64,000 nucleotides of DNA. Origin: Acholeplasmatales bacterium. GTDB taxonomy: Bacteria; Bacillota_I; Bacilli_A; Acholeplasmatales; Anaeroplasmataceae. Position 1 is the first letter of the stretch. Every line of letters starts with the position of its first letter. The position numbers were made by a program, and so were the translations under genes. Shown in pieces: positions 6,433 to 19,570 of the stretch. The DNA is taken from assembly GCA_017454375.1 (NCBI GenBank), contig JAFTDB010000022.1, positions 1 through 64,000 on the forward strand, read 5' to 3'. The notes beneath the pieces are model-generated. The model was not told the DNA's origin, ran no database searches, and saw only the letters and a program-made list of their open reading frames with translations.

Positions 6433-8160
6433 ATGGAGAATGTTAGAAATAACAAGAATATCAAAAAGAAATATCTCCAATTTTTCTTTTCCGTATTAGT
6501 ATCGGTTTTGATATTACAGATTACAACAATTGTTGACTCCATTATTGTTGGTACCTGCATAGGTACAAAGGAGATGTCAGGTGTTAAGGCATCTAATCCG
6601 ATAATTAGTATAGTCGCGGTTATCGCTACACTAATAAGTGTTGGAACAAGTATGGTGATTTCAATATCACTTGGTAAAAGAAATACTAAGAAAAGCGATT
6701 CAGCATTTACATTTGGATTTCTTCTATGTTTACTTGTTGGTGGATTAATAAGCCTACTTGGATGGTTCTTATCAGATAAGATAGTTACTTTATTTACAAG
6801 TAGCGCTGATGTTTTAGAGTTTGCTAAAACATATACCAAGATAGTTATTCTTGCAGCCCCTGCGATGATGTTATCAACCTATTTGGGTTACGCAATTAGA
6901 AGTGATGGCTTTGCTAAATTATCAATGACATTATTAATTGCTGGTGGCTTAATAAATATATCATTCGATTTAATATTTATATTAGGTGGTCATCTAGGAG
7001 TAACAGGTGCGGCAATCGCTACTGATATGAGTTATGTTGGTGGTGTACTAATTGCGGTAGTCTACCTATTTATGAAAAACCGTAATTTACATTTCACAAA
7101 TATATTCAAACGTGATAGTGGAATAAAAGAAATATTTACTGCCATTGTAAAGAATGGTGCTCCATCATCTTCAAGATTATTATTCGTTTCAATCTCAACA
7201 ATCATTGCAAATTATGTAATTGGTAAATATGTTGGCTATATGGGACTTGCGGTATTTGCTGTAGCATCCAATCTAAGCTTAATTGCTACGGCGGTGTTCC
7301 AATCATCCGGTGCTTCGATGATGCCAATCATGGGTGTGTTCTATGGTGAGAAGGATTATAAAGGAATCGAGCTTTTAGTTAGATATGTGATGTGCTTTTT
7401 ATTAGTCTTAGTCGTAATCATCATCATCTTGCTTGAAGCATTCGCTCCATTATACTTCCCATTATTTGGTATCATAGAGGTTATGGATGAATATGTAGTA
7501 TTCTTAAGATTATTCTCAATTGGTCTTGTATTCGCTGGAATCAATTACATTTTAATTTATTACTTTACAGCACTTCAAAAGATGACTGTTGGTGTATTGA
7601 TTCCACTTGTTGAACAAATCATATTATGTGTTCCACTTACATTTATGTTAATTCCTAACTACCAGCTTAACGGTCTAATTTGGATGTATCTAATCAGTGA
7701 AGGTGGCACAACATTAATTACATTTATTGTCCTATGTTTCATTAAGAAGAAAAAGAAGCTTGATAATATATTATTACTACCAAAGGCTAATAACGAATTG
7801 TTGTTGGACTTCACAGTACTTGCTAGTGATATAGAGGCAACAAAGATATCAGAGGATGTTGGTAGAATTCTTTTAGAAAATAATATAGATGAATTCAAAT
7901 CAAATCGTGTTGCTGTCATATTAGAAGAAATGATAGTCAATACGAACAATGCTGAAAAGCATAAAAAGAAGGTATTTATTGATATAAGAATAATTAAAAC
8001 AGCTGAATCAATCATTGTATCAATGCGTTCTAATGGTTATCCTTATAACCCTCTAATTGATACAGAGGATGAGATTTCTCAAAAGCTAATTAGCTCTTTA
8101 TCAATTAAATTGCGATATAACCAAATTATTGGATTTAATCAAACATTAATCGAGGTGTAG
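6433..8160 (+). CDS. MATE-family exporter fused to a C-terminal RsbW/GHKL-like ATPase domain
   Basis: Residues about 15-445 form the roughly 12 membrane segments of a MATE (MOP superfamily) efflux protein, seen in runs such as DSIIVGTCIGTKEMSG and AIATDMSYVGG. A plain MATE protein is about 450 residues; this one is 575. Residues about 456-575 resemble an anti-sigma-factor kinase fold: an N-box-like ILEEMIVNTNNAE near 495 and SNGYPYNPL near 532, matching ENNGVEFNPL in the sensor gene downstream. The glycine-rich ATP-lid motif (GGLGIRL there) is missing here, so the domain may bind a partner without acting as a kinase. The reading frame is unbroken and the NRPS ribosome site lies in its last codons, so the two are coupled. 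Likely role: export of the NRPS product under control of the STAS protein (inference). Confidence 0.88.
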   Translation: MENVRNNKNIKKKYLQFFFSVLVSVLILQITTIVDSIIVGTCIGTKEMSGVKASNPIISIVAVIATLISVGTSMVISISLGKRNTKKSDSAFTFGFLLCLLVGGLISLLGWFLSDKIVTLFTSSADVLEFAKTYTKIVILAAPAMMLSTYLGYAIRSDGFAKLSMTLLIAGGLINISFDLIFILGGHLGVTGAAIATDMSYVGGVLIAVVYLFMKNRNLHFTNIFKRDSGIKEIFTAIVKNGAPSSSRLLFVSISTIIANYVIGKYVGYMGLAVFAVASNLSLIATAVFQSSGASMMPIMGVFYGEKDYKGIELLVRYVMCFLLVLVVIIIILLEAFAPLYFPLFGIIEVMDEYVVFLRLFSIGLVFAGINYILIYYFTALQKMTVGVLIPLVEQIILCVPLTFMLIPNYQLNGLIWMYLISEGGTTLITFIVLCFIKKKKKLDNILLLPKANNELLLDFTVLASDIEATKISEDVGRILLENNIDEFKSNRVAVILEEMIVNTNNAEKHKKKVFIDIRIIKTAESIIVSMRSNGYPYNPLIDTEDEISQKLISSLSIKLRYNQIIGFNQTLIEV

Positions 8161-17031: not shown

Positions 17032-17328
17032 ATGGAAATAGTAGTAAAACATGGAAATGAATTAACTGTAGCTTTAAAGGGAAGATTAGATACTAATACT
17101 TCCCCTGAGCTAGAAAAATGCTTAAGAGAGGAACAGATTACTGAAGACTTAGTAGTTCTTGATTTTAAAGAGCTAGAGTACATTTCATCTGCTGGCTTAA
17201 GAGTATTACTAGCAACAAAGAAGGTATTGGATTCAAATGGCAAGAAATTTGAAATTCATAACATCAATGATGTTGTTAAGGAAGTATTTAACGTTACAGG
17301 ATTTGCAAATATTTTAACTATTAAATAG
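17032..17328 (+). CDS. STAS-domain protein, anti-anti-sigma-factor-like
   Basis: This 98-residue single-domain protein has the classic length of SpoIIAA/RsbV. The phospho-acceptor loop EYISSAGLRVLL is intact; by alignment with RsbV the acceptor should be Ser53. Such proteins bind an RsbW-type kinase when unphosphorylated and are reset by a PP2C phosphatase. Here both partner types are encoded next door: phosphatase and kinase in the following gene and a kinase-like domain on the MATE protein. It starts 14 bases after the NRPS stop with GAAAGGAAG as ribosome site. No sigma factor is nearby, so the switch may act on the exporter rather than on transcription (inference). Confidence 0.92.
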   Translation: MEIVVKHGNELTVALKGRLDTNTSPELEKCLREEQITEDLVVLDFKELEYISSAGLRVLLATKKVLDSNGKKFEIHNINDVVKEVFNVTGFANILTIK

Positions 17329-17343
17329 AAAAGAGTTGTTATT

Positions 17344-19530
17344 ATGCGTTTATATATACGCCATAAAATATTCCTCTTAGGCTTTGGATTAACACTCTTT
17401 TTAGTCATAGTTGCGTTTGTAGCGAGCTTCTTTACATATAAGAATCGTGTCGAGTCTAAATATGATGAATATTTAAAAACATCTATAGATGTTGCAGCTG
17501 ATTGGTTAAGTGATTTAAGGGCTAAGGTTGAATCATATTCTACATCAGAATCTAGAAGCGACGTAGTTAATTATGTTATTGATACATATGAAACGATAGT
17601 AGCGGATGATCCTAATTATCCAAAAAATACATCTTTAGAAGAATATTATAACTACTTTAATTCTAAGTATTCTGATTTATATCCTTCTGCATCAGGAGGA
17701 GCCATAATAGGAATGAGTAGAACCGGCCCAACCAACAGAGCCAATCATGCTAGCTTAAGATCTGATCTTGTATCAGCACTTAGTGTCGCAGATGGTGTAC
17801 TAGGTGAACTAGTCTATTATGATCAAACACGTAACCGTTACGTAGACATTGTTAATACAATGTTCAAATTTGAAGATGAGACGGCTACTGGTGATTTTCC
17901 AGGCTCATATAAGACTCTTACAGCTGAAGATGTGAAGATTATAGATTATATAACTTCAGGTGGCTATACACCACTTGGAGAAACCGTACGAATCTATAAT
18001 AGAAATTATGCGGACGGCTCTTATCTTACATACTATATAGATATAGTAGATGGAGATAAGTTTGTAGGTAGAATAATTATGAACTACGATAAGTTAGTTA
18101 TTCAAAGCACACTTCAGGAATTCGCAATTATTCTAGCATCAACACTTTTAGGTATTGGTGTACTACTTGTATTATTCTATTCATACTTTGCCCATCTAAT
18201 GGTTGTTAAGAATGTTAAAAAGCTAACAAAGACTTCTGATAAATTCAAGGATGATTTATTAAATAATAAATCGTTAGAAGTAATTAAAACAAACATTAAT
18301 ACACATGATGAAATAAGAATGTTATCAGATTCATTTGAAATGCTAGAGGATGAAATTATTTCTTATGCAAAAAGAATTGAAGAAGAAACTACAAGTAGAT
18401 TAAAGATGCAATCAGAGTTAGAGATTGCATCAGATATCCAGCTTGGGGCCCTACCTACAACTAATTTAAATGATGAGAATGTCTTGATTCGTGCATCAAT
18501 TAAATCAGCTAAAGAGGTCGGTGGTGATTTCTACGATTATTTCTATATTGATGATGATCACTTGGCAATCATTATAAGTGATGTATCTGGTAAGGGTGTT
18601 CCTGCAGCCTTGTTTATGATGAAGGCCAAAGAGCTTATTAAATCAAAGCTAATGAGCAATGAAGAATTAACAAAAGCTTGCTTCGATGTTAACAATGCCT
18701 TAATTGATAATAACAAGCAAGGATTGTTCATCACTGCCTTCATTGGTATATTGGATGTTAAGAGTAGAGTATTAAGATTTGTTAATGCTGGACATGAAAG
18801 ACCATTCATTATTGGTATTAAGGATGTTAAGCAACTAAAAGTTAATTCTAACTTCATCCTAGGTGGAGTAGAAAACTTTGAATACAATGCTGATGAGATT
18901 AAGCTTAATGAGAAGGATAAGCTATTCTTACATACAGATGGCTTAAATGAATCTATTAATTCTAACAAAGAAGAATTTGGCTATGATAGAATCTTAAAGG
19001 TTCTTGAGGAAGATAAGGATTTACAAATTAGTGATTGCCTAAATAATATGAAAGGTGAGCTTGCCACATTCGTAGGTGATGAAGAAGCATTTGATGATGT
19101 TACAATGATGATTGTAGAGCTTAAAACACCAAAGCTTCATTTCAAATTTGTGAATCGTGGATATGACATAATTGATATCGTTAATAATAGAATTAATGAT
19201 TATTATTCATATGTAGATTCAAAGGTATTATCTGAGGTTAATATCATCTTTGATGAGCTTTTAAATAATTATGTTTCTTATGAAGATAAAGAAAAGCTCG
19301 TTATTGAAATTGATATTGAGCTTAAAGATAATGTATTCATCTTTGATATAGAAAATAATGGTGTTGAATTCAACCCATTAGATACTCACGAGAAGAAGAT
19401 AAAAGAGTTTGATCCTGATATGCCACTTGGTGGACTAGGAATAAGACTAGTTCAAAAGCTATCTACAGATATTAAATATCAACGAAAAGATGATAAGAAT
19501 ATCTTAAAAATTAAGAAGGCAATTAAGTAA
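17344..19530 (+). CDS. Membrane sensor with HAMP, SpoIIE/RsbU-type PP2C phosphatase and RsbW-like kinase domains
   Basis: The 728-residue protein has a membrane segment at about 9-31, an extracytoplasmic sensor region to about 258, a second membrane segment at about 260-285, a HAMP-like linker, and a SpoIIE-type PP2C phosphatase from about 357. Phosphatase motifs are IQLGALP, VGGDFYDYF, SDVSGKGVPAALFM, VNAGHERPF, LHTDGLNES and FDDVTMM. From about 595 a GHKL kinase domain follows, with the N-box DELLNNY, ENNGVEFNPL and the ATP-lid GGLGIRLVQK all present. One chain can therefore, in principle, both phosphorylate and dephosphorylate the STAS partner according to an external signal. It closes the NRPS operon and is followed by a terminator. 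The ligand is unknown. Confidence 0.92.
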   Translation: MRLYIRHKIFLLGFGLTLFLVIVAFVASFFTYKNRVESKYDEYLKTSIDVAADWLSDLRAKVESYSTSESRSDVVNYVIDTYETIVADDPNYPKNTSLEEYYNYFNSKYSDLYPSASGGAIIGMSRTGPTNRANHASLRSDLVSALSVADGVLGELVYYDQTRNRYVDIVNTMFKFEDETATGDFPGSYKTLTAEDVKIIDYITSGGYTPLGETVRIYNRNYADGSYLTYYIDIVDGDKFVGRIIMNYDKLVIQSTLQEFAIILASTLLGIGVLLVLFYSYFAHLMVVKNVKKLTKTSDKFKDDLLNNKSLEVIKTNINTHDEIRMLSDSFEMLEDEIISYAKRIEEETTSRLKMQSELEIASDIQLGALPTTNLNDENVLIRASIKSAKEVGGDFYDYFYIDDDHLAIIISDVSGKGVPAALFMMKAKELIKSKLMSNEELTKACFDVNNALIDNNKQGLFITAFIGILDVKSRVLRFVNAGHERPFIIGIKDVKQLKVNSNFILGGVENFEYNADEIKLNEKDKLFLHTDGLNESINSNKEEFGYDRILKVLEEDKDLQISDCLNNMKGELATFVGDEEAFDDVTMMIVELKTPKLHFKFVNRGYDIIDIVNNRINDYYSYVDSKVLSEVNIIFDELLNNYVSYEDKEKLVIEIDIELKDNVFIFDIENNGVEFNPLDTHEKKIKEFDPDMPLGGLGIRLVQKLSTDIKYQRKDDKNILKIKKAIK

Positions 19531-19536
19531 AAAAAT

Positions 19537-19570
19537 AAGCAATCTTCCAGTTGGAGGATTGCTTTTATTT
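19537..19570 (+). terminator. Rho-independent terminator of the NRPS operon
   Basis: Arms AAGCAATCTTCC and GGAGGATTGCTT, with one G-T pair and a 4-base loop, are followed by a T-rich tail. Confidence 0.9.

Follow-up and report, generated by a model that had tools for sequence, protein, structure and literature searches.

A MATE transporter with a degenerate RsbW-like tail in an NRPS operon: a candidate partner switch with a transport output

The window, which is the whole stretch of 64,000 nucleotides that was analysed, carries a gene for a MATE transporter with an RsbW-like C-terminal domain. The established targets of partner switches are sigma factors and a handful of enzymes, and this locus raises the question of what such a domain might do on an exporter. 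The initial annotation had suggested that the domain has lost the glycines of its ATP lid and may be a pseudokinase that senses free STAS protein and passes the signal to the transporter helices. Our best explanation is that unphosphorylated STAS protein binds to a nucleotide-free tail and gates the export of an NRPS product, with the transporter and not a sigma factor as the output. We give this reading a probability of about 0.5.

There are four genes in a tight operon on the forward strand, separated by intergenic gaps of only 4, 14 and 15 bases (Table 1). According to open frames and Pfam, they encode the MATE-GHKL fusion, an NRPS, a STAS protein and a membrane sensor phosphatase, and no sigma factor was found among the four (Pfam). 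The presence of the tail in an operon that joins an NRPS to the parts of a switch suggests that the switch acts on the exporter instead of on genes.

Table 1. Features of the operon, with positions in the window
Feature	Positions	Strand	Basis
MATE transporter with C-terminal RsbW-like GHKL domain, 575 aa	6433..8160	+	open frame
Degenerate GHKL domain, residues 446-575 (stretch modelled)	7768..8157	+	AF2 model, Foldseek, VIA, sequence
N-box EEMIVN; E498, E499 (catalytic-base position) and N503 kept	7924..7941	+	alignment to SpoIIAB
G1 box RSNG (532-535); Ser533 in place of Asp, Gly535 kept	8026..8037	+	RDDG in most relatives
Site between Q550 and K551 from which the ATP-lid motif is deleted	8080..8085	+	relatives have Y-S-T-S-G-I
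NRPS, 2950 aa	8165..17017	+	Pfam domains
STAS protein, 98 aa, LEYISSAGLRVL	17032..17328	+	PF01740 over cut-off, alignment
Membrane sensor phosphatase, 728 aa	17344..19530	+	PF07228 2.8e-38, PF13581 7.4e-11
GHKL domain of phosphatase: ENNG at G1 box (670-673, no Asp), intact GGLG lid (696-699)	19351..19440	+	sequence
Terminator-like hairpin just 3' of operon	19537..19564	+	hairpin search

The first protein matches MatE (4.1e-38, Pfam) and scores 149.1 bits against TIGR00797, above the curated cut-off of 147.4, which places it in the MATE family. The NRPS has three modules, with three adenylation, two condensation and three carrier domains followed by a terminal thioester-reductase domain (Pfam). 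Because of this last domain, the product is probably released as an aldehyde. The best NCBIfam match is the aureusimine synthetase AusA, which is also an NRPS with a terminal reductase. However, the score of 1397 bits is under the cut-off of 2500 and the window enzyme is three-module, so it is not counted as an AusA member. The STAS gene is intact and Ser53 occupies the phosphorylation position in the alignment, as is characteristic of the STAS component of a partner switch; the partner that the initial annotation had supposed is thus encoded in the same operon. The phosphatase comprises an extracytoplasmic domain (residues about 36-258), a SpoIIE/PPM domain (403-593) of the kind used by partner switches, as judged by Pfam and motifs, and a C-terminal GHKL domain. 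A model of the extracytoplasmic sensor (pLDDT 82) has the sensor domain of chemoreceptor Tlp3 as its best Foldseek rows, with an E value of 0.0038 or worse and TM of about 0.3, and Pfam returned nothing consistent for this sensor across 17 rows. The hairpin that follows the operon comes from a search that is weak, with 6 terminator-like sites found against 4.3 expected in shuffles.

The sequence FIKKKKKLDN, located between the last transmembrane segment and the tail, suggests that the tail is cytoplasmic. A model of 130 residues was produced with AF2 from a 28-row alignment comprising the window sequence and 27 relatives. It has a pLDDT of 84.2 and a pTM of 0.80, and its elements are ordered as strand, helix, helix, two strands, helix and two strands. 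In Foldseek, the top 20 rows consist entirely of SpoIIAB, RsbW, the mycobacterial SigF anti-sigma factor (UsfX) and Rv1364c, with an E value of 2.3e-6 at rank 1. Likewise, VIA Z scores range from 13.0 to 14.3 against SpoIIAB, RsbW, UsfX and Rv1364c, with 12.9 for SiaB and 11.1 for LvrC, whereas the first histidine kinase reaches at most 7.7. The high-scoring anti-sigma-kinase chains include those from complexes with STAS proteins, namely SpoIIAB-SpoIIAA, RsbW-RsbV, UsfX-RsfB and SiaB-SiaC (12.9). The predicted structure of the tail alone therefore confirms an RsbW/SpoIIAB-type GHKL fold of the anti-sigma-kinase subclass, as the initial annotation had anticipated.

At the level of sequence, the profile of the tail aligns with SpoIIAB at an E value of 0.0034, gap-free over 76 positions. 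In this alignment, E499, N503 and S533 fall at the positions of the catalytic Glu, the Mg-binding Asn and the adenine-binding Asp, which we take to be the roles of these residues. The tail reads ILEEMIVN at the N-box and RSNGYPYNPL at residues 532-541. The Glu and Asn of an active RsbW kinase are consequently present, while the G1 Asp and the glycine lid are absent. The strings quoted in the initial annotation are there, including SQKLISSLSI where the downstream phosphatase has GGLGIRL, and so is the N-box-like segment (E498, E499 and N503). Its statement that the lid glycines are lost is correct, although it had missed the additional loss of the G1 Asp. Pfam finds no HATPase_c_2 domain in the window protein or the isolated tail at E values up to 1. 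This domain is recognised in the other 27 of the 28 alignment rows, with a value of 0.0052, below the cut-off, for the relative L033.

The initial annotation had also stressed the resemblance to ENNGVEFNPL of the downstream protein. Both strings exist, but in a phmmer comparison the window tail is closest to the tails of other MATE fusions, with 7.8e-15 for L079, while the best of the phosphatase domains reaches 9.2e-7. An origin of the tail as a copy of the GHKL domain of the downstream phosphatase was rejected, as a branch with support of 100/98 splits 40 MATE tails from 36 phosphatase and 2 RsbW domains in a tree that is unrooted and has flagged long branches.

There are 39 columns that are conserved in at least 90% of the 34 site-intact fusions, and the window tail retains 15 of these, including E498, E499, N503, D517, G535, P540, Y562, N569 and T571. 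The ATP site appears to be lost, while the docking face seems to be retained. One position of this face deserves caution. SpoIIAB Arg20 is presumably the counterpart of RsbW Arg23, and by way of the SpoIIAB alignment a near-invariant Ser (473) of the MATE-tail family lies at this position, which indicates that the interface differs in detail from that of RsbW-RsbV. Excerpts of the structural work on that complex report that RsbW Glu49 contacts RsbV Ser56 and that RsbW Arg23 also contacts RsbV (PMC7340262).

Scanning of the named genomes with site-intact relatives as queries yielded 34 loci, all of them on MAG contigs. They are labelled as Bacilli, Bacillales, Acholeplasmatales, Erysipelotrichaceae, Clostridia, Clostridiales or Christensenella, and several titles include the word rumen. 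An NRPS, in some loci cut by the contig end, adjoins the fusion on its upstream side in every case (33 by rule and L086 by gene listing). A STAS gene is located directly 3' of the fusion in 31 of the 34 loci, the exceptions being L081, L103 and L104. A GHKL phosphatase comes next in 27, and is missing from this place in the same three loci and in L080, L087, L102 and L108. In the genomes of L103 and L104, the STAS-phosphatase pair is present but unlinked to the NRPS and the fusion. The genome of L081 (G013) has its STAS gene elsewhere, and no phosphatase of the operon kind was found in it. The MATE tail is found twice in this genome, and the additional copy (L067:1495-1701, G013:C99) sits where a contig stops, next to an aminotransferase-like gene. 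The window differs from all 34 loci in that the MATE gene comes first, although the four parts are the same, and thus their linkage is more than an inherited order.

There are 40 distinct fusions after exclusion of L107, whose tail is the same as that of L074, and of L042, which is the same as L041 where aligned. The sequences L034-L039 and L073 correspond to the records L079, L078, L105, L080, L111, L081 and L096, and each was counted once. The base Glu is retained in 38 of the 40, the Asn in 37, the Asp in 38 and the Gly in 39. All four residues occur together, along with one lid glycine, in 34 fusions. The remaining six (the window, L033, L040, L041, L075 and L076) also lack the TxG(I/L) remnant of the lid. 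A full glycine lid, as read from the alignment, is found in none of the 40. The initial annotation had proposed that full-lid homologues would mark the window copy as merely decayed, and the outcome lies in between, given that none has such a lid and most keep the site residues with a single lid glycine. By these counts, the window clade stands at the far end of a trend of site wear and is not a lone decayed copy.

The only close relative of the window fusion is L033 (65% identity), which also reads RSNG and has the same lid deletion. The idea of a lone decayed copy was rejected because of this shared loss, and the lid loss is conserved to that extent, a point that the initial annotation had asked about. 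Between these two sequences, dN is 0.32 and dS is 1.84 for the tail, compared with 0.26 and 1.79 for the MATE part, where dS is near saturation. At second codon positions, the divergence is 0.162 in the tail and 0.164 in the MATE part. The similarity of these values suggests that the tail is constrained about as strongly as the transporter part, within the limit set by the near-saturated dS, and both site-deficient tails are probably still under purifying selection. In the MATE tree, which has long branches that meet, L040 groups with the site-intact fusions, while the window with L033, L041 with L075, and L076 lie apart. Besides G000 and G001, there are no further window-type copies among 55 genomes of the family, and none were found at 1e-36 among 392 genomes of the phylum, where at most three candidates were scored per genome. 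A total of 119 plasmid records match the MATE protein, none across more than 80% of its length.

Some degenerate fusions outside the window clade have different surroundings. In L075, which represents an independent case, the tail of the MATE protein has lost the N-box Asn and the glycine lid is missing. The genes that follow encode a PPM phosphatase that lacks a GHKL domain, a STAS protein and a separate RsbW with complete motifs, including the Asp and the GGLG lid. No NRPS is present in the 19-kb stretch. This appears to be the clearest example of a kinase and a non-kinase RsbW side by side, and it is the single such operon found. Only two of 395 genomes match at 1e-30, and these are G228 itself and an unfused MATE. 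In L076 (402-3172), the degenerate-tail MATE protein is followed by a 336-amino acid protein that, by eye, resembles a PAS plus adenylate-cyclase type. The degenerate-tail fusions of L041 (2263-3987) and L042 (15239-16963) have no STAS or phosphatase match in the 18-19 kb around them.

The initial annotation called the downstream protein a sensor kinase and used it as a reference for an intact site. It does carry a sensor, a GHKL domain and an intact lid, but it is a phosphatase, and its G1 box has no Asp. A set of 34 phosphatases was compiled, consisting of the window protein and 33 others found at 1e-15 as open reading frames of 600-800 amino acids in L078-L111 and L128-L132. Those of L128-L132 are not beside a fusion, the second copy in L085 is of another type, and that of L082 is cut by a contig end. 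All 34 have the GHKL Glu and Asn, and 33 show the three lid glycines, the other one being truncated where its contig stops. By contrast, the G1 Asp survives in no more than five; the residues found in its place are S (14 times), N (7), C (4), T (3) and V (1). This absence from 29 of the 34 makes the kinase of the switch uncertain and leaves its phosphorylation cycle unsecured.

The gaps in the two kinds of GHKL domain are complementary. MATE tails keep the Asp with a short lid, and phosphatases keep the lid, mostly without the Asp. The genome of L040 has the most degraded fusion tail, while the phosphatase found there (L132) keeps its Asp. In the window operon, the GHKL domain of the phosphatase has the Glu, the Asn and the lid without the G1 Asp. 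Such complementary wear of the two domains would mean that most of these operons have no single complete kinase left, as far as motifs can tell. The GHKL domain of the phosphatase, despite its missing Asp, is the only candidate kinase found in the window genome.

A mechanism that accommodates these observations would begin with the sensor phosphatase, which would read an outside signal and dephosphorylate the STAS protein, thereby setting its phosphorylation state. The MATE tail would then offer its N-box face as docking site to unphosphorylated STAS protein. Perhaps the docked protein opens or closes the exporter, whose cargo would most likely be the peptide that the operon's NRPS produces. 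The tail itself would descend from an RsbW/SpoIIAB-type switch kinase and, as a relic free of nucleotide, would now serve as a docking module. The RsbW-class fold, the kept N-box Glu, the conserved linkage of the locus, the L075 operon, the G001 genome and the constraint on the tail are all consistent with this docking. Against it stand the retention of just 15 of the 39 conserved columns, the Ser at the Arg23 position, the unlinked STAS genes of L081, L103, L104 and L033, and the loss of the Asp from the phosphatase.

There is an analogue for each step of this mechanism in other systems. The RsbU-RsbV-RsbW and SpoIIE-SpoIIAA-SpoIIAB switches also consist of a PPM phosphatase, a STAS protein with a Ser and an RsbW-fold domain, but in the window this domain is fused to a MATE protein and has no ATP site, and the genome showed no sigma factor of the SigB/SigF kind. 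According to excerpts of a study on Mycobacterium smegmatis, RsbW1 is without kinase activity and RsbW2 is the kinase (PMC7693655). This system therefore pairs a non-kinase RsbW with a separate STAS kinase, although its output is SigF and no transporter is involved. Direct control of a non-sigma target is represented by SiaABCD of Pseudomonas aeruginosa, in which SiaC activates an enzyme directly, as described in the available part of PMC8457831. It also combines a membrane PPM phosphatase (the NF038263 SiaA match is 3.3e-13, below the cut-off), a STAS-like protein and the kinase SiaB, whose domain has the same fold (Z 12.9). However, its target is a diguanylate cyclase bound via a stalk, whereas a transporter would be bound via a GHKL-fold tail in the window. 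Finally, the accessible text of PMC7367683 reports that the STAS protein MlaB binds the ATPase of an ABC transporter (MlaF), with a phosphorylation-type residue at the interface; that system differs in its use of an ABC ATPase and no GHKL domain, and no phosphatase or kinase is known there. The contacts of RsbW with RsbV (PMC7340262) complete this set. MATE exporters are found beside biosynthetic genes elsewhere, as with SolL, MbnM and GntT, to which the MATE part has weak NCBIfam matches. Those models stop with the MATE part (about 410-460 positions) and include no GHKL tail.

Although the parts are already known, their combination appears to be new. A search of the literature at the level of titles and the openings of abstracts, with few subscription journals covered, gave no paper on a MATE-RsbW fusion or on a MATE protein under a partner switch, which agrees with the view of the initial annotation that such gating would be unusual. 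In its excerpted text, a review of STAS-only proteins mentions transporters just for SLC26/SulP fusions (PMC8256260). We are slightly more tentative about the larger picture, in which a partner switch with a transport output keeps export in step with synthesis and its two GHKL domains wear complementarily. If true, a transporter as direct target would extend partner switches to the post-translational control of secretion, and would explain how gut bacteria could keep the export of a reactive peptide in line with its production. The tails with intact and lost ATP sites also form a natural series for asking what a GHKL domain does after ATP binding is gone.

Several other explanations have to be weighed against docking of the STAS protein on the tail. 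The strongest of them, though still an unlikely one, is that the tail and the phosphatase's GHKL domain form a heterodimeric scaffold that gathers sensor, STAS protein and exporter, such that the STAS protein is not the direct ligand of the tail. Dimerization of RsbW through beta1 and alpha1 is reported in excerpts of PMC7340262, and the available portion of PMC7693655 contains the proposal that RsbW3 of M. smegmatis works through a heterodimer with RsbW1. In addition, both kinds of GHKL domain co-occur in most loci and have complementary gaps. A MATE tail is nevertheless present in L075, where the phosphatase is without such a domain and a stand-alone RsbW is the kinase, and L080, L087 and L108 have a STAS gene but no adjoining phosphatase. 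Less probable still is a role of the tail as a membrane-tethered anti-sigma factor, from which the STAS protein would free a sigma factor so that the state of the exporter controls transcription of its own operon. The nearest structures (SpoIIAB, RsbW and UsfX) and the two small sigma-region-2 proteins of the genome are compatible with such a role. These two proteins are probably too short for the SigB/SigF type with region 3, however, and the operon itself encodes no sigma factor.

We give equally little credence to the idea that the tail is a functionless remnant that has decayed in the window clade. Although all four site residues survive in 34 of the 40 distinct fusions and the window copy is no longer recognised by Pfam, this idea has to contend with the confident predicted fold, the same loss in the 65% relative, and values of dN/dS and codon-position divergence that resemble those of the transporter part. 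Moreover, L040, L041, L075 and L076 have also lost parts of the site and retain the domain. A further rival, in which the tail anchors the NRPS or its carrier protein at the exporter and the STAS protein acts elsewhere, is just as improbable. An NRPS adjoins the fusion in all 34 loci and in the window, and L103 and L104 keep the NRPS and the fusion together with the STAS and phosphatase genes elsewhere. Yet L075 combines the fusion with PPM, STAS and RsbW and shows no NRPS within 19 kb, and the known use of this fold is pairing with STAS proteins.

Binding of the STAS protein to the tail is also compatible with the inventory of the genomes involved. There is one STAS match in the window genome, one HATPase_c_2 match over the cut-off, which is the phosphatase, and two PPM matches. 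Three sigma-region-2 proteins are present in this assembly, which is 92.5% complete; two of them are small (162 and 178 amino acids), and none of the three is of SigB/SigF-like length. With this completeness and a contamination of 7.3%, the fact that no further STAS or sigma genes turned up does not prove that none exist. In G001, the sole STAS gene found is a stand-alone orthologue, and a phosphatase at 49% is located on another contig. This genome keeps one of each part although they are unlinked, which fits a shared function.

STAS genes also occur in other settings within these genomes. In L136 (8276-11573, G573) and L120 (G572), a further NRPS-like gene and a gene for a carboxylesterase-like protein come right after a STAS gene, no MATE gene adjoins them, and this arrangement constitutes a second STAS-NRPS linkage. 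Fusions of a STAS domain to a phosphotransferase-like protein (about 380-394 amino acids) form another unusual STAS arrangement, found in L086 near position 1537 and, in frames of about 380-387 amino acids, in G572:C2, G573:C126 and G574:C2, in places near another SpoIIE phosphatase.
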